NCBI GenBank assembly: GCA_031292575.1
Contig: JARLGX010000005.1
Location: 62,001-126,000, forward strand
Length of the DNA: 64,000 nt
From: Paludibacter sp.
GTDB lineage: Bacteria > Bacteroidota > Bacteroidia > Bacteroidales > Paludibacteraceae
Direction of reading: 5' to 3'
A program made the position numbers and the translations under genes. Below, in pieces: positions 39,964-59,970 of the stretch. The notes beneath the pieces are model-generated. The model did not search any database. It was not told where the DNA came from and worked only from the letters and a program-made list of their open reading frames with translations. Numbering within the stretch: position 1 is the first letter of the stretch; each line of letters starts with the position of its first letter.

Positions 39964-42234
39964 TTATTTTACCATGATTACAATATCCTGTCTTCTATTT
40001 TCAGGAATTATTGAAACCACCCGCACTTTCCCATCCTTCAATTCAGCTTCTACAGTCGTATTTTTTGGCGCATGTAATTTAAAATGTACATTCCAATCTT
40101 TTGGCCATGCCGGAAAAAGAAGGATTTTGCCATCGTCGGTGGTTTGCAAAAGCATTTCCTGCAAACCAATCATGCCACTGCCTCCCCAATTGCAATCGGG
40201 ACTCCAGTCGAAACCGGGACCCCAGAATGCAGGAAAACGGTACGGTCCGTTGGCAAGTTTCAGCGAATTTAATCGTTTGGCTTCGTCGGTTAGTCCGAGG
40301 CAGGCTGCAAAAATATTATCCTGTTTCCAACCCACATGACTTCTGAATTTTTGAACATCAGGATCGTAAAGATAGGTATTTCGGGCAATTTGCAGACTAT
40401 CTTTCCCCACTCCAAAAATATGCCATGGAAACACCGGATAAAGCTGGGGTGCTTCTGTATTATTCACCCTTTCCCATGTTTTGGCTGGTGAAATCATCGT
40501 TTTTCCATCAATAATTCTCAATGGTATTGGTGGAATGGTTTTGAGCAAAGAATCATTGCCCAATGTTTTCAAAATGGTTTTCAATGCAGCAATTGTACTT
40601 GCCGGATTATTGGCCATTTTATATGTTTCACAAGCCGAAGCCGGAAAAAGGATTAAATGTCCTTCGCCATCCAGCGTTTTCCGCCCCCGATGTTGTGCCA
40701 GATAGCGGTAATGTTCGTCGAAAAAGCGGACACAACTTTCAATCAGCGGTTTGTATTTCGCAATATCAGCATTTGCATACTCTTTCGTTTCCAGAATCAT
40801 TTGGCAGATTTCCAGTGCCGTATCCCAGGTATACTCTAACCACGCGTTGTATTCAACTCCTTTGTCAAAATAATCAGGGCGTTTCCAACCGTATTCGCTT
40901 GGGTTGGGCAACCCGAAATTCTCAATCTGTTCCGTAAAGCATGCCCCTTGATGATTCCAATAAATTTTAGAGCGAAGTTCGGCATTTTTCAAAATACGAT
41001 TGTAAAACTCAAATTCAGGAATCATCATGTCGAAATCACCCGATTTCAACATAGGCCAGTAAACCAATCGTTGATTTTGCGCAGTAAAAGTGCCACCTGT
41101 CCAGCGACGGTAATCGGGTGTAAATGCCAGCTTTGAATCAACAAAAACCGGATCGAAAGTAAACAGTCCTCCGTTGAAGCGGGTAGGCCAACCGCTGTGG
41201 GCATTACAGCCAAGCATATAACGAAACAACGTGTAATTCCGCGAAAGATTTGCAGCTTCGCCGTCGATATGAATAAAACTGCGGTTCCAAAAATCATTCC
41301 ACCAGACAACAGATTGTTTCCCGTCGATTTTTGTGTTTATCTTTTCAATTGTTTTATTTAAAGCAGATGTCCATTCGCTAATATTTTTATCCTGTGAAAT
41401 TTGCAGAGCAATTTTTAATTCCTGTTTTTTAAAAGGTTTTTTACTTTTGAAAATCCATGCTTTATAATCAGTTCCTGAATAAATCCCCTTTTCAGTACGA
41501 TTGAAAATCAGATTTTCGCCCCACATTTTTCCCCCTGAAGTGAGTTGGCAAAGAGGATTATATAGTTGAGGTTTCACACTTTCGAGTCCTTGCTGAGCAA
41601 CGGTTATATCAAAAATTGTCTTTTCGGAATTTCGGTGAAAAAAAGTAACTGAATTCTCCGTAGTCGAAATTGAATCTTTCCCTGTAACAAGCCCTTTGGG
41701 AGGAGACCATTTGTAGGATCCCTGATCTCCTTCCCCTTTTCGGATTATTCGGTCAGCATATCGCCAGTTTTCATAACTAATTTCTGACGTAATTTTCTTT
41801 TTGCTTACAATTTCAAAGTGAATAACCGGCTTAAAAACATCTGCCCAAAGTTGAATGGTAATTCCATTGGCTGAAAATTCAACATAACCATCGTTTAATT
41901 TCAAAGTCTGACGGAAATTTGTTGCCTCGGTGAATGGATTAGGTGAAAGACGCACCCTGAAACGCCCTTGTTTAAGCATGGTATTATTTTCATCGAAAGC
42001 ACCACTTTTACTGACGTAAAATAACAAATCACCATTTTCCACCCACACATTCATGCCGATATCGCCGCCACCACAGGGCATTGATTCCGATGAATTGTGA
42101 GATGGGGAAGTCCATGTGTAATCTGGTTCTATAGCAAAAGCAGAGGAACAGACTAAAAAGAGGAAAAAAAGAAGAACCCCTAACCCCTGAAGGGGAACTA
42201 ATTTAGCTTTGCTTTGTATTCTTCTCATATTCAT
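39964..42234 (-). CDS. DUF5703 family exported protein, GH95-like helical-barrel hydrolase
   Basis: The 756-residue product has the beginning DYTWTSPSHNSSESMPCGGGDIGMNVWVENGD that I associate with DUF5703. A long (alpha/alpha)-barrel part follows (RYMLGCNAHSGWPTRFNGGLF, EYNAWLEYTWDTALEICQ) like GH95/GH65-type enzymes. The carboxylates are not assignable by eye. A fucosidase- or galactosidase-type activity is possible. The first 34 residues are an odd signal peptide: the segment LVPLQGLGVLL is encoded by a repeat arm (42176-42197) of the inverted repeat pair. The start could be residue 1 or residue 3. The gene lies in the carbohydrate operon, 65 bp after the esterase stop codon. Confidence 0.65.
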   Translation of the reverse strand: MNMRRIQSKAKLVPLQGLGVLLFFLFLVCSSAFAIEPDYTWTSPSHNSSESMPCGGGDIGMNVWVENGDLLFYVSKSGAFDENNTMLKQGRFRVRLSPNPFTEATNFRQTLKLNDGYVEFSANGITIQLWADVFKPVIHFEIVSKKKITSEISYENWRYADRIIRKGEGDQGSYKWSPPKGLVTGKDSISTTENSVTFFHRNSEKTIFDITVAQQGLESVKPQLYNPLCQLTSGGKMWGENLIFNRTEKGIYSGTDYKAWIFKSKKPFKKQELKIALQISQDKNISEWTSALNKTIEKINTKIDGKQSVVWWNDFWNRSFIHIDGEAANLSRNYTLFRYMLGCNAHSGWPTRFNGGLFTFDPVFVDSKLAFTPDYRRWTGGTFTAQNQRLVYWPMLKSGDFDMMIPEFEFYNRILKNAELRSKIYWNHQGACFTEQIENFGLPNPSEYGWKRPDYFDKGVEYNAWLEYTWDTALEICQMILETKEYANADIAKYKPLIESCVRFFDEHYRYLAQHRGRKTLDGEGHLILFPASACETYKMANNPASTIAALKTILKTLGNDSLLKTIPPIPLRIIDGKTMISPAKTWERVNNTEAPQLYPVFPWHIFGVGKDSLQIARNTYLYDPDVQKFRSHVGWKQDNIFAACLGLTDEAKRLNSLKLANGPYRFPAFWGPGFDWSPDCNWGGSGMIGLQEMLLQTTDDGKILLFPAWPKDWNVHFKLHAPKNTTVEAELKDGKVRVVSIIPENRRQDIVIMVK

Positions 42235-42290
42235 AATCGTTGATTTATAATGGAATGAAGTAATTATATGCCCCTTTAGGGGTTAGGGGT
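42176..42290. repeat. Inverted repeat pair A around the DUF5703 start codon
   Basis: The left arm ACCCCTAACCCCTGAAGGGG (42176-42195) and the right arm CCCCTTTAGGGGTTAGGGGT (42271-42290) are inverted copies with one mismatch. The minus-strand ATG (42234) lies between them. In mRNA they would pair around the start codon. The right arm begins 10 bp after the upstream gene's stop; the left arm is coding. Other copies are at 46946-47050 and 59862-59970. Confidence 0.8.
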
Positions 42291-42299
42291 CATAGCACT

Positions 42300-43744: not shown

Positions 43745-46700
43745 TTATTTAGTTATAAAAGTCAATGGTCCAATTAGTCCTGCTTCCAGCAGTTTATCTT
43801 CACTCATGCGGTATTTGCCGTTTGTCCAGATTCCGGGAAATGGTGGTGTACCTTTATCTGAACCATTTATTGCATTTGCCCAGGTGTTGGTCACTTCAAT
43901 TTCGAGTGAATTTAAACCATTTTTCAGAGCTTTGGTTATGTCAACCTGATAAGGTGTTGTCCAAGCCGTTCCACAATCAATGCCGTTAACGCGAACAGTT
44001 GCCAGATTACAAACTTTCCCTAAATTCAGGTAGATTTTGTTCAATTTAGAATCTGCATTCCAATTAAAACCGCTTTGATAAATGGCTGTACCCGAATAAA
44101 ATTTAATCAGCGGATTTGCACTTTTACTCCAGTCGAAAAGCTGGTTTGATAGTTCCGTTTGATTATTTTTCAAGAAAGAGACATTCCACTTTCCGTTAAT
44201 TTCAAACGGTTTTGTGACAGCATTTGTTGGCTGTTCCACAACATTCGGTTGATTTGTTTTATTGCTGAAAACAACAAAAACAGATTCGTAAGGGGCTAAT
44301 GTAAGTTTCATCGAAGTTCTTCCTGATGTCGATTTCCAACTTTCAGGGGATGTAATTTCAGCATTAACCGGATTCCATAACTCCGGTGTTTTTCCAACGA
44401 TCCGAAATGATGCATCAAAGTTTCGTGTATTATTTTCCTGATTTGAAATAAAATAAATATCGGCTTTATCGCCCCGACGATGCGTCCACGCTATTTGTTC
44501 CGGCACAATCACATCCATTTCAATCCCATAAGCCGAGAAATCATTGGCTGTAAAAGGCAAGGTTGGAATAATCACGCCTGCCTTTTCTAACTCATTTATT
44601 TTTGCCTTAACTTCAGCCGAAAGTGGTACATTGTCGGGATTCATTGGGTTCGACAAAGGCAATACGAGCACTTTGTACGAAGCTCCACCGGGCAACACCA
44701 ATCGTCCGTTTTTGGCCTCAGCCAATCGTAGTAAAGCATCCTTATTGAACGAGTCGTAGGCATATCCCCGCAATGGGTTAATCCATTTTTCGGGTTCAGC
44801 CATGTTAGCTGAATGATGAACTCCGGCTGGCATTTCACATTGCGGCTGGCCTTCATTCTTCAGCCGGATGCGTTCACTTTCCACGCGTTCCGCCCCGAAA
44901 ATTCCGGGAAGTGAAGGTACAAGCCGGTCAGGCAAGATGGCACGGCGCGGAATTTCTTCACCCGTAAATACAGCAATGTCAGCAACCGGATGACCATATT
45001 GCAACATAGCCTGGCAGCGGGTTACATAATCAACCCAAGCTTTGCCCGATTTCCACCAGGTTTGATCACGCTGAAAATAGTGACCAATTCCATCTAAGGT
45101 AACTCCCGGCGCACGATCCATATACGGATTGTGTACAAAAACATGAAAGAAAACTTTATTGATTCCCAATGCAAAATTACGGTCAAGAACCGGTTTTAAC
45201 AGAGCTGGATCTTCATCCCAATTAACCCTCAATTCTGTGAAACTTTCACATTGAATAATATTTTTACCATAAATATGGGCTCCACTGATGGCATCGAGCA
45301 TGTCGTTGGGCTTATCGTGAGTAGGACTGCGTAACCAAAACTCGCCCATTGGACGATCGGGTATTTGGAAGTGCAACATGCCATCGCTCACAAAAGTTGG
45401 AGCTATACATTCATTCGACGTTTCGCACCCGTAAGCCTTGGCATTTTTCTGCATAACTTTGAAAAACACATCCACCACTAGTTCGGAAATAGTCGTCCGC
45501 ACATCGCGCAAAACTTTCTCCGAAACTTGTACATTCTCAATCGGATAACCTGCCAATAATGGCAAGTATGGCATTAAATCGTAACCACGCCGGGCTTTAA
45601 ATTCGGTAGCAAAATTACTGCTCCAGTTTTGGCTGCCACATTCCCAACTGTCGATGTGCATAAATTTCAGTACCCGATGCGCCAATGCCGAGTCGGTTTT
45701 GGCAAAAGCTGCCCCAAACCAATTGTCGAATTGTTTTTGCACTGCTGTCTCTGAAAATTTATCGCATTCAAGTCCTTTTGCCTCACCACCGGTTGCATTG
45801 GTTTGTCCAGTGGAAGTATGTCCCATGCGCAAAATCCGCCAAGTGCCACGCGGAAGATTACATGTGAGGTATCCATCTTTAAAAGACGAAGTTAGATTTA
45901 TGATTTTATCTTTTGGCGTACAATCTGAAGTTGTGATTTCATGCGACGAAGTTTCGTTTGCTACACGCCAAACAAGTCCGGCTTTGCCTTCCCATTGATT
46001 AATTCTGGGGGTAGAACTCAACTTAATTTCTTTGATTTTCAAAGTCGGTTTCCATTTGGCAGCGTCCAAATCTTCGCTTCCGGGCTCAGTTCCAACAGGA
46101 GTCCAGGATAAGCGGAAATAACTTGCTGTGGTAGGTGTAACACTGAACGTACTGTTGAATCCCGTGTTTTGCCAACCCTGACGGGCAGGAATAAGCAGTT
46201 TGACTAAGTGGAAATTTACCCCATCATCACTGGCTGAGACGGCAAGTCGCTGCGACTCAAAATTATTTCCTGTAGGCGTCAGCTCTATGCTTCGCAAGGT
46301 AAAAGGGCTGGTATAGTGATACTCAAGATAACACGGTTTCGACGCTTTGAAATCTTTTCCGGGGATGGAAAACGGAATGGAGTCATCAGGATTGTCAGAC
46401 TTTACTGAAAAATCATCCCTTGATTTTCCGAAAGAGGCGTTAGAAACCGGAAGTGCATAGACAGCAATATCATCGTAATAGCCCTGATAAGATTCAGGAA
46501 TTTTGATTTTCAAATTATTAATTTTTCCTCCGGCAATAATCGTATCAGTAAATACCACTTTTTGCATGGACTCCTTGGGCGTAATCCACGGTCCGCCGGC
46601 TAAGGCAAAACCATCTGAAACATGCATACCAAGTTTCAACCCGAGACTATCAGCTTCCTGCATGCTGTAACGCACCATTTCCCACCATTGGGGTGTCAGT

Positions 46701-47008
46701 TGCGAAACGGCGTTCGGATAAGTTCCATCAACACCCCGTATTGTCATTAAATATGCACCTCCCAAACCGATTTGCTTCATGGCTTCCAAATCGGCTTTGA
46801 TACCGGGCTTGGAAACTGCACCATGCATCCAGTACCAAAAAGTCCAGGGTTTGGCTTCGACAGACGGATGATTGAATTGGTTGTAAAGAGAAGGTTGGGA
46901 AAAAGAAAAAGTTGAAATAAATAAAAACAGAAAAAGAACAAAAGAACCCCTAACCCCTAAAAGGGAATTGAAGTTACATTTGTCTATAATATTTTTTTTT
47001 TCTAACAT
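43745..47008 (-). CDS. GH106-like alpha-L-rhamnosidase, exported
   Basis: The 1087-residue product shows the GH106 beginning WTFWYWMHGAVSKPGIKADLEAMKQIGLGGAYLM. It also has the typical barrel residues KFMHIDSWECGSQNWS and MLDAISGAHIYGKNIIQCESF. The C-terminal beta-sandwich is the carbohydrate-binding-like domain (NLATVRVNGIDCGTAWTTPYQVD). GH106 enzymes release alpha-L-rhamnose from rhamnogalacturonan or glycosides. The N-terminus MLEKKNIIDKC continues with NSLLGVRGS, which is encoded by an arm of the repeat pair at 46946-47050, directly before the signal hydrophobic core. No later ATG can start before the core, so the repeat is likely translated. The start lies 41 bp beyond the preceding GH2 stop codon. 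Confidence 0.85.
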   Translation of the reverse strand: MLEKKNIIDKCNFNSLLGVRGSFVLFLFLFISTFSFSQPSLYNQFNHPSVEAKPWTFWYWMHGAVSKPGIKADLEAMKQIGLGGAYLMTIRGVDGTYPNAVSQLTPQWWEMVRYSMQEADSLGLKLGMHVSDGFALAGGPWITPKESMQKVVFTDTIIAGGKINNLKIKIPESYQGYYDDIAVYALPVSNASFGKSRDDFSVKSDNPDDSIPFSIPGKDFKASKPCYLEYHYTSPFTLRSIELTPTGNNFESQRLAVSASDDGVNFHLVKLLIPARQGWQNTGFNSTFSVTPTTASYFRLSWTPVGTEPGSEDLDAAKWKPTLKIKEIKLSSTPRINQWEGKAGLVWRVANETSSHEITTSDCTPKDKIINLTSSFKDGYLTCNLPRGTWRILRMGHTSTGQTNATGGEAKGLECDKFSETAVQKQFDNWFGAAFAKTDSALAHRVLKFMHIDSWECGSQNWSSNFATEFKARRGYDLMPYLPLLAGYPIENVQVSEKVLRDVRTTISELVVDVFFKVMQKNAKAYGCETSNECIAPTFVSDGMLHFQIPDRPMGEFWLRSPTHDKPNDMLDAISGAHIYGKNIIQCESFTELRVNWDEDPALLKPVLDRNFALGINKVFFHVFVHNPYMDRAPGVTLDGIGHYFQRDQTWWKSGKAWVDYVTRCQAMLQYGHPVADIAVFTGEEIPRRAILPDRLVPSLPGIFGAERVESERIRLKNEGQPQCEMPAGVHHSANMAEPEKWINPLRGYAYDSFNKDALLRLAEAKNGRLVLPGGASYKVLVLPLSNPMNPDNVPLSAEVKAKINELEKAGVIIPTLPFTANDFSAYGIEMDVIVPEQIAWTHRRGDKADIYFISNQENNTRNFDASFRIVGKTPELWNPVNAEITSPESWKSTSGRTSMKLTLAPYESVFVVFSNKTNQPNVVEQPTNAVTKPFEINGKWNVSFLKNNQTELSNQLFDWSKSANPLIKFYSGTAIYQSGFNWNADSKLNKIYLNLGKVCNLATVRVNGIDCGTAWTTPYQVDITKALKNGLNSLEIEVTNTWANAINGSDKGTPPFPGIWTNGKYRMSEDKLLEAGLIGPLTFITK

Positions 47009-47050
47009 ATGCAGAATAACTAATTTAGTTCCCCTTTAGGGGTTAGGGGT
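46946..47050. repeat. Inverted repeat pair B around the GH106 start codon
   Basis: ACCCCTAACCCCTAAAAGGG (46946-46965) faces CCCCTTTAGGGGTTAGGGGT (47031-47050). The GH106 ATG (47008) lies between them. The first base of the upstream GH2 gene's TGA stop overlaps the right arm at its end (47050-47052). The pair could form a 20-bp GC-rich stem in mRNA. Confidence 0.82.
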
Positions 47051-49905
47051 CATTTAAACTTCAACACAATTCTTCCTGTTTGTTCACCGTCCACCCATTT
47101 TGGTTGGGCTGATGGCCCGTTTAAATCAGTTGAATTTACTTTATTTCTAACTGGTGGAATTACATTTAAAATTGAAATTCCGCTTTCAGGCAACTTATAG
47201 AGCAAATTATCGCGACCGTCACGTGGTTGGTAAACGCCAACATACGTATCCGGTGTTTCATTGGTAATGCTTATTTCACCTTCCGAAGTTTTCAGGGTCA
47301 TCCAGCTTACATGGGCAAAATAGCCTTTAAATTCGGGATAATCGAATGATTCACCTGGAATGGGATCATTGTATTTATTTTCCCATAAATCGTAAACCGG
47401 ACCCTGGGTTCGGTTTTGCCATACCCGATACGGACCGTCGCCCAACCAGCGTTTACTTTGAACTTTGTCTTCAGGATAATCGAATTTTATTCCCATCATA
47501 TCTACCACTGCACTGAAATTATAGCTGTAATCCAACGTCATTGTTCCGTTGGGAGCAATCGTCCATTGTGCTTTATCCATATTTCCAAGTTTATAATTAG
47601 CAGTTACAATCAGGTTTTTACCATTTTCTTTTATATCAAATCCGGTAAAAACAGCTGCATCGGTAAATTCCGTATAAGTACGTTCTTTCGCTTTTGCATC
47701 CGGATCGTCATGGTTGTAGAACTGATCCAATGAACGGTCGGCTCGGCGAGCCGCAAAAAAGTGAGGTCCGTTGGCAAAACTGATTTCACGTCCACCAATC
47801 GAAACACCTTTCAGTTCGCCATCTTTTTTGCTGAAAGTAATTTTCTCATTTGCTGCAGTAATAATCAATGATTCAGAAGTTGATTCCTGAGTCGGAACCG
47901 GACCTTCAATGGTTGAACTTTGTGCCGGTTTTTGAGCCGGTATTCTGAACGACCAACGCCAAAGTTCTTCACCACGATAATCAATAGCCGTAAGAAATAA
48001 TGCATCGGCTTGAGGGTCAATAGTCGTATTCAAATTGAGTTTCCCGGCTGAATGTGCCACAATATCCGAACCATTCACTTCGCCTTGTTTCAACACTTTT
48101 ACTGTTCCTTTTTCGTCGGAGGCAGATGGAAATTTCACCTGTTTCCACACAAAACGGCAAGTATTTATGTTCAGAAAATCATACCGGTTCTCAATATTGA
48201 AAACTCCGTTAAAAGTGGCATCAATACTCTTTTCAACCACCTGCACCGGACACCAGACTTGTTTTATCGTAAAATAGCTTCCCTCTTTTTCGTGATGCGG
48301 ACCTACAATTCCATCGCAAGCCCAATTTCCCTGGTTATCAATAAATCCGTTCATATCCACACGCTTTACACCTTCGTCAATCAAGGCCCACAAAAAACCA
48401 CCGGCACACCGTGGATGTTTCCGCATCATTTCCCAATAATCGTACAATCCGGCACCCAATCCGCCATCATACAATCCATGTAAAAATTCGGTTGGCATAA
48501 AAATTTCCGGCTTGCGCAAATAATCTTCTGTTTCGCCGTACGAGCGGTAATGCATGGTTTCAAATCCTCCGAAATTTCCCTGAGGATGAATAACAGGGCG
48601 GTGCTGCACATCGTATTTCCAAAATTCTCCATTCAGTTCGTTGTTCCAACCGCCTTCGTTGCCGTTACTCCACCAAATTACACACGGATGATTCACATCG
48701 CGCTCCACCATTTCTTTCACCAGTTTTATCCCCGTTGGGGTATCGTAATGTCCGTGCCACCCCCCCAGTTCATCCATCACATACAGTCCAAGCGAGTCAC
48801 AAGCATCCAAAAAATCAGGATCGGCAGGATAGTGTGAAAGGCGTACCGAATTCATATTCATACTTTTAATCAAAAGTACATCTTCAATGTTTTTTGCCTT
48901 GGAAAGTGTCCGGCCACTTTCAGGGCGGAAACTGTGGCGGTTCACACCTTTTATTAAAACTTTAACGCCATTGATATACAAACCATCACTTGGACGAACT
49001 TCGATGGTGCGAAATCCGAATTTATCGGAAACCTGATGTAAAACAGTACCATTTGCGTCGAGTAATGAAACCTGAGCAGTATAACGGTTTGGAGTTTCAG
49101 CAGTCCAAAGAAGTGGATTTTTTACAGACAATTCAGCTGTTGCCCAATCACTTCCTTCTTTTACCGAAGTAACGGATTCAGCCACTTGCTTGCCTTTTGC
49201 ATCGAGGATAACAGTTTTTATACTTGCTTTTTCAATGGCTTTATTCAATTGACAATTCGCCTTGAAAGTTCCATCGGCATGAGCATCAATGGAAAACTGT
49301 TGAATATTAATTACAGGCATTACTTCAAGAAAGACCGGGCGGAAAATCCCACCAAAGTTCCAATAATCAGCACGGCGTTCAGCCAGATTTACGTTTGGAT
49401 CGGCACTTTCTTTGTTTACCGTCACTTCCAGTAAATTTTTCTTTCCATATTTTACTCTATCGGTTATGTTGTATGAAAAACGATAAAATGCACCCTGATG
49501 CATCTGACCAGCTTTCTGACCATTGATTTTTACCTGTGTATCCGTCATCGAAGCCTCGAAAACAATGTTTATCTGTTTTCCCCGCCATGCGGTCGGAACT
49601 TCAAATTCATATTTATACATGCCGGTTTCATTGGCAATACCTTCGGCAGTAGCTTTTCCGTAAAATTTCATTCCATACTGATATTGCCCAAATCCCTGTA
49701 ATTCCCAACACGAAGGCACTCCAATTTTGGTCCATTTGCCGGAATTCATTCCTTCGGTACAAAAGAAATCCCATTGCACCATATCATCGCAACCGTGCCC
49801 TGAAAGGTAAATACGTTCGGTTGTTAGTGTTGACTTTTGAGCAAAAATGGAACTGATTGGGGAACCAAAAAGTGTAAAAATCAAAACAAATTTTAAATAC
49901 TTCAT
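47050..49905 (-). CDS. Exported GH2-family glycoside hydrolase
   Basis: I start at ATG 49905 (MKYLKFVLIFTLFGSPISSIFA), since the 15 extra residues in the track come before a normal signal peptide. The 951-residue enzyme has the sugar-binding and Ig-like domains, then the TIM barrel with acid/base Glu417 in WSNGNEGGWN and nucleophile Glu473 in MPTEFLHG. A C-terminal beta-galactosidase small-chain-like region follows (ISFANGPHFFAARRADRS). It resembles exo-beta-galactosidases acting on plant glycans, but the specificity is unknown. A terminator before it (50048-50085) suggests it starts its own transcription unit. A TAGTTTTG box is at 50044-50037 on the minus strand. The last amino acid is followed by TGA that touches the repeat. 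Confidence 0.88.
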   Translation of the reverse strand: MKYLKFVLIFTLFGSPISSIFAQKSTLTTERIYLSGHGCDDMVQWDFFCTEGMNSGKWTKIGVPSCWELQGFGQYQYGMKFYGKATAEGIANETGMYKYEFEVPTAWRGKQINIVFEASMTDTQVKINGQKAGQMHQGAFYRFSYNITDRVKYGKKNLLEVTVNKESADPNVNLAERRADYWNFGGIFRPVFLEVMPVINIQQFSIDAHADGTFKANCQLNKAIEKASIKTVILDAKGKQVAESVTSVKEGSDWATAELSVKNPLLWTAETPNRYTAQVSLLDANGTVLHQVSDKFGFRTIEVRPSDGLYINGVKVLIKGVNRHSFRPESGRTLSKAKNIEDVLLIKSMNMNSVRLSHYPADPDFLDACDSLGLYVMDELGGWHGHYDTPTGIKLVKEMVERDVNHPCVIWWSNGNEGGWNNELNGEFWKYDVQHRPVIHPQGNFGGFETMHYRSYGETEDYLRKPEIFMPTEFLHGLYDGGLGAGLYDYWEMMRKHPRCAGGFLWALIDEGVKRVDMNGFIDNQGNWACDGIVGPHHEKEGSYFTIKQVWCPVQVVEKSIDATFNGVFNIENRYDFLNINTCRFVWKQVKFPSASDEKGTVKVLKQGEVNGSDIVAHSAGKLNLNTTIDPQADALFLTAIDYRGEELWRWSFRIPAQKPAQSSTIEGPVPTQESTSESLIITAANEKITFSKKDGELKGVSIGGREISFANGPHFFAARRADRSLDQFYNHDDPDAKAKERTYTEFTDAAVFTGFDIKENGKNLIVTANYKLGNMDKAQWTIAPNGTMTLDYSYNFSAVVDMMGIKFDYPEDKVQSKRWLGDGPYRVWQNRTQGPVYDLWENKYNDPIPGESFDYPEFKGYFAHVSWMTLKTSEGEISITNETPDTYVGVYQPRDGRDNLLYKLPESGISILNVIPPVRNKVNSTDLNGPSAQPKWVDGEQTGRIVLKFK

Positions 49906-52404: not shown

Positions 52405-59858
<7,454 letters not shown>

Positions 59859-59861
59859 ATG

Positions 59862-59970
59862 ACCCCTAACCCCCTGAAGGGGAATTGAATTAGTTTCGTC
59901 AAATTTGATATTCATTTCATTAAGCCTATAAATTGCAGGATGCAAATATTCCCCTTTATGGATTAGAGGT
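59862..59970. repeat. Inverted repeat pair C upstream of the fusion gene
   Basis: ACCCCTAACCCCCTGAAGGGG (59862-59882) and the more divergent CCCCTTTATGGATTAGAGGT (59951-59970) face each other. The ATG at 59915 lies between them, and the second arm ends at the stop codon of the GH67-like gene. It is the most decayed of the three pairs. Confidence 0.7.

Follow-up and report, generated by a model that had tools for sequence, protein, structure and literature searches.

REPINs and BIMEs are mobilised by RAYT (TnpA-REP) transposases, and the Bacteroidetes subclass 2.6 has atypical repeats which, like the Paludibacter element described here, carry no GTAG/CGTC tag (PMC3116915, PMC6006769). Our element resembles REPINs and BIMEs in that it consists of high-copy palindromes of ~20 nt, forming inverted pairs around a variable centre and situated mainly in intergenic regions. 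Unlike them, it lacks the GTAG tag, has no cognate RAYT that we could find nearby, and its arms are functionally asymmetric, lie at operon junctions and are often coding: the copies are mostly located between genes, yet 27 candidate reading frames cross the arm.

In its coding use the element can be likened to the Rickettsia palindromic elements (RPE), palindromic mobile repeats that occur in frame in unrelated host proteins; RPEs, however, are translational fusions within ORFs, whereas the Paludibacter element sits at junctions, where it ends the upstream gene and would give the downstream one a start and a leader (PMC10969869). Similarly, REP insertions in subclass 2.4 tnpA-REP genes are in-frame repeats leaving the frame undisturbed, but there the repeat sits in its own transposase gene, and in Paludibacter it is host metabolic genes that have it at their N-termini (PMC6006769). 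Operon MITEs, for example Chunjie, are also short mobile elements within operons (PMC10969869); in contrast to these, the Paludibacter element appears to take over the translation start, and by eye we saw no target-site duplication in its flanks, the filled and empty sites at hand not being from very close strains. As the GTAG/CGTC tag is lacking and no cognate RAYT was found, we do not file the element as a member of REPINs or RPEs. In the part of the literature searched we found no earlier description of it, and a search with the arm sequence gave unrelated papers.

We aimed to explain three such inverted repeats in the window, that is, in the whole analysed stretch of 64,000 nucleotides. 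We interpret them as copies of a REPIN-like mobile palindromic element located at operon junctions, in which the loop ATG together with ~20 codons would form the new start and leader of the downstream gene; we assign to this reading a probability of about 0.83.

Copy number and architecture of the repeat family

The 19-base arm CCCCTAACCCCYRAAGGGG has 45 exact copies in the 3.46 Mb genome, and 214 if up to three mismatches are allowed, whereas the reversed arm pattern, used as a control, yields 0 exact copies and 1 near one; hence the arm pairs are not a product of chance. Exact copies were observed in 30 of 35 congeners (1 to 83 per genome) and in 13 of the 395 genomes of a phylum-wide Bacteroidota sample, the present genome counted. 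Among named records, the whole inverted pair belongs mostly to Paludibacter, with a few occurrences in Emticicia, Ferruginibacter, Chitinophagales and others. The congener G016, represented by one contig (3,685,504 bases), has 47 copies, and both its TrpB and its TrpC have element-coded leaders; these observations are therefore not caused by draft assembly.

In the 299 kb around the copies, we found 42 inverted pairs and 54 single arms. The element length is about 70-125 bp, and terminal inverted repeats are present in the family copies. In the copies inspected, the foot of the palindrome reads ACCCCTAA, and neither a GTAG (GT[AG]G) nor a CGTC tag is seen there. Rfam gave no accepted match, just a sub-threshold one to a eukaryotic microRNA family.

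On its loop side, the arm (46965-46990 in the window, and other copies) often has the form GTTASTTTTGTCT, containing TAnnTTTG. TAnnTTTG is the Bacteroidetes -7 promoter box; no -33 box was seen with this inner motif. Other repeats were encountered as well. The window itself has, between ORFs (2664-2731), a perfect 31-nt inverted repeat with a 6-nt loop. In genomes from other families of the class, two related glycosyltransferases (named by eye) have an SPFGGWG leader, and in another Bacteroidia genome (L325, 1428-1446) a related palindrome lies in frame inside an isoleucyl-tRNA synthetase-like ORF (also named by eye).

Three copies in the window and the starts of the adjacent genes

The features considered are listed in Table 1. 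On the gene (minus) strand, all three elements have the same layout: the 5' arm, an A/T-rich loop and the 3' arm. The arms of element 1 are 95% complementary; the degenerate 5' arm of element 3 reads CCCCTTTATGGATTAGAGG. The three inverted pairs had been reported by a sequence-only reading of this DNA; they are indeed present, although their spans (115, 105 and 109 bp) slightly exceed the 85-110 bp given there. The same reading placed an arm at, or within 10 bp of, the upstream stop codon and an in-frame ATG in each loop, and both statements hold: the 5' arms are at 9, 0 and 0 bp, and the ATGs at 42234, 47008 and 59915 are all in frame.

Table 1. Elements, genes and start codons in the window
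Feature	Coordinates	Strand	Details
Element 1	42176..42290	-	5' arm 42290-42271 and 3' arm 42195-42176 (gene sense), with the loop between
ATG directly before element 1	42291..42293	-	ATGACCCCTAACCCCTAA reads M-T-P-N-P-stop
Loop ATG, proposed DUF5703 gene start	42232..42234	-	second in-frame ATG at 42228
Gene 1, DUF5703_N protein	39964..42234	-	PF18961, E 1.5e-113; predicted element-coded leader MNMRRIQSKAKLVPLQGLGV
Element 2	46946..47050	-	5' arm 47050-47031, 3' arm 46965-46946
ATGA adjoining element 2	47050..47053	-	TGA stop of the upstream gene overlaps ATG
Loop ATG, proposed GH106 gene start	47006..47008	-	in-frame
Gene 2, GH106 alpha-L-rhamnosidase	43745..47008	-	PF17132, E 2e-160; predicted leader MLEKKNIIDKCNFNSLLGVRG
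Element 3	59862..59970	-	5' arm 59970-59951, degenerate; 3' arm 59882-59862
Element 3 loop ATG	59913..59915	-	in-frame but redundant
Gene 3, beta-glucuronidase/beta-L-arabinofuranosidase-like (GH2-type)	55689..59858	-	native ATG 59858, downstream of the arm

In genes 1 and 2, the stretch from the arm to the core of the signal peptide contains not a single ATG, GTG or TTG, and hence the arm has to be coding; judging from the reading frames, translation must begin in the loop and continue through the arm. The ATG directly before element 1 may be the orphaned native start. In several congeners the orthologs of both genes have ordinary signal peptides and no element: those of gene 1 begin MNKLKYIFFFLSISF, and the empty-site ortholog of gene 2 (G062) begins MKKLKLLFLLVSVVG. 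The insertion of element 2 is common to the congener G065, and independent repeats are found at the orthologs of genes 1 and 2 in other congeners. In two of the congeners (G026 and G020; L362, L375), the gene 1 ortholog has a different repeat, read as LLPSPQGEG, in frame in its N-terminal region.

In the case of gene 3, the native ATG follows directly after the arm, which makes the arm 5' UTR and the ATG in the loop redundant. The protein matches the NCBIfam equivalog NF049877 (2497 bits; residues 6-1389 aligned to profile positions 2-1400). Thus, the suggestion that the arm enters the reading frame of all three genes stands for genes 1 and 2 and fails for gene 3, whose native start lies behind the arm and aligns from profile position 2.

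Operon junctions and candidate element-derived leaders

The placement scan targeted every listed copy with at most one mismatch, yielding 299 kb of sequence around them with 138 arms; gene boundaries were taken from a simple codon-usage gene finder. Co-directional gaps constitute 60 of the 63 gaps with an element compared to 79 of the 97 without one (p = 0.015), and this preference is real but modest, as the genome itself is mostly co-directional. Where an arm faces the 3' end of a gene, the stop codon lies within -17 to +15 nt in 42 out of 44 cases; in ten of the 44 it ends at the arm, and in six the arm itself contains it (as TAA with its end at offset 7, or as TAA/TGA at 14-15). Read inwards, the 5' arm, TGACCCCTAACCCCTRA, contains a stop codon in each of the three frames. 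The left flank is ATGA, followed by CCCC, in 6 of these 44 arms against a background of 0.5% (~28-fold, p = 8e-8), as also seen in window elements 1 and 2. Such a flank is consistent with an insertion just behind a start codon, the first A being that of the element. At its other end, the element either stops short of the following gene, with the 3' arm lying right in front of it, or takes the place of that gene's start; most copies precede an intact native ATG.

Starts that have been replaced are best seen in the trp operon, compared in 41 genomes of the genus, including the present one. The presence of the element is lineage-specific: a junction that is filled in some species is empty in others. 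At empty junctions the native starts are kept (TrpG MKILVFDNYDS, TrpA MNRINQLF, TrpC MTILDKII), whereas at filled ones the native methionine is gone and the leader runs into the next residues (SPLGVGG-NRINKLF). A 3' arm is near 63 of the starts, and in 54 of these the native ATG is lost. All 54 genes have an open in-frame element ATG, the other two frames giving 0 and 6; since some of the trp insertions are inherited, these 54 cases are not 54 independent events. Other repeats occur in this operon, too. At the trpG-trpD and trpD-trpC junctions (L135, C40) one such repeat is a minisatellite built from ATGYCATTGTGMRG-type units and another is a CCACGAAGTGG...AACCGTGGG palindrome, and in congeners the same trp junctions have further inverted repeats of the TTATTTGCCTTCGGGCG type, with the native ATG intact.

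In the outward direction, the 3' arm has one or two open frames (SPLGVRG / SPLG[VA]RG, PLQGLGV). In the 299 kb, an in-frame loop ATG was found for 14 of the 59 arms facing a downstream gene versus 3 of the 53 facing the other way. The scan of the copies in this genome yielded 27 candidate frames, each opening at a loop ATG and continuing across the arm into an ORF; in 25 of these the ATG is 53-65 nt before the arm end, and most of the candidate leaders are similar, M...[DE]x[ST]NFxSPLG[VA]RG. The genes concerned, about two dozen, include those for MurI, RsmH, NifB, NifE, TrpB, TrpE, TrpG and TrpF. The family model starts just past the leader in MurI, RsmH, CysN, CysH, NifB, NifE, NifV, TrpB and TrpG, and many of the leader genes lack any ATG, GTG or TTG from the leader to the beginning of the conserved domain; in MurI, the next possible start codon falls within the conserved DSGYGGLT motif. 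As both the loop sequence and the ATG position are alike in unrelated genes, the loop ATG probably travelled with the element.

The sequence-only reading had proposed checking if copies lie between same-strand genes and retain frame, and the placement scan, the trp junctions and the leader scan all gave a positive answer. There is also strong support for its side remark that the arm could be a mobile repeat which has been domesticated as protein sequence.

Proposed mechanism, alternatives and mobilisation

According to the mobile-element reading, the element would insert at an operon junction, often right after the ATG of the downstream gene or beside the upstream stop. The stops in the three frames of the 5' arm would close the upstream gene, the A/T-rich loop would often bring an ATG, and the 3' arm would be open in the outgoing frame; the loop ATG and about 20 codons would then become the translation start and the N-terminal leader of the downstream gene. 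If a native ATG survives after the arm, as in window gene 3 and at many copies, the element would be only a spacer. Ribosomes would thus initiate in the loop, and the copies have presumably moved by transposition. Most likely, the element was tolerated, and would by now be needed, because its own stop and start come with it. We lean towards the view that the mobile repeat is now a portable 'stop-then-start' module, on which many core genes of the genus, some of them essential, depend.

A further possibility, compatible with the above, is coupled re-initiation: the hairpin would bring the stop of the upstream gene next to the start, be it downstream or in the loop, and in this way preserve coupling, so that ribosomes terminate, stay and restart at the hairpin. 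In the predicted folds the 5' base of the stem holds the stops, whereas the starts are either at the 3' base or in the half-unpaired loop; besides, at some empty trp junctions the start and the previous stop overlap as ATGA. Many of the empty junctions, however, are not tight in this genus, and we hold this addition tentatively, at somewhat less than even odds.

Alternatively, a long mRNA stem could sequester the start and tune translation or serve as an RNase processing site, which was the view of the sequence-only reading. Stable stems are indeed predicted from the arms of elements 1-3 (MFE -49, -51 and -38 kcal/mol; z = -3.1, -6.2 and -1.6), but the loop ATG is in the A/T-rich loop outside the stem, with a mean unpaired probability of about 0.5, variants in the arm spacers are not matched beyond chance (no significant covariation, p = 0.19), and the presence of the element at the same junction differs between species. 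Hence, sequestration of the start by the stem is not borne out, and this explanation as a whole seems unlikely. Still less probable is ordinary REP/REPIN intergenic clutter, with the leaders being gene-calling artefacts and the true starts being unusual codons after the arm: the prevalence of copies before intact native ATGs is as expected of extragenic repeats, but both the 54 of 54 lost-start trp genes with an open loop ATG (0 and 6 in the control frames) and the conserved domains starting right behind the leader, many without an intervening start codon, argue against it. A gene-specific regulator of glycosidases was rejected, as copies are also found in trp, nif, cys and many other operons.

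If the mobile-element reading is true, there would be a clear route for selfish repeats to become indispensable, via the translation initiation of operon genes, and many sites throughout the genus would have their gene calls and annotated N-termini affected. Bacteroidota rarely use Shine-Dalgarno sequences. The junctions that occur both with and without the element offer natural replicates, and thus testable material on the evolution of N-termini, on translational coupling that survives insertion and on translation start in Bacteroidota.

As for a mobilising enzyme, no such arm is present within 1.5 kb of the PF01797 proteins of this genome, no Y1 transposase flanked by the arm was found, this genome's own Y1 genes included, and no transposase-bearing parent transposon with the same ends was seen in the stretches examined. 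The candidates of PF01797 class 1 and of the 2.4-like and 2.6-like groups that we inspected, in this genome and congeners, have other repeats or none nearby, and a third group, of the SGQAYFLTW type, is absent from several copy-rich genomes. The copy number is correlated with the number of Y1 genes (partial rank r = 0.44 given genome size). In the congener G017 (L192, 1938-2066), a tnpA-like gene of the SGQAYFLTW type is disrupted by one copy of the paired element. The 2.4-like tnpA genes (L152, L156) contain tandem peptide repeats, RDAMHDDNC and GVSMVNNELIREGGP, inside tnpA-REP-like proteins, which resemble the repeat insertions described for subclass 2.4 tnpA-REP.
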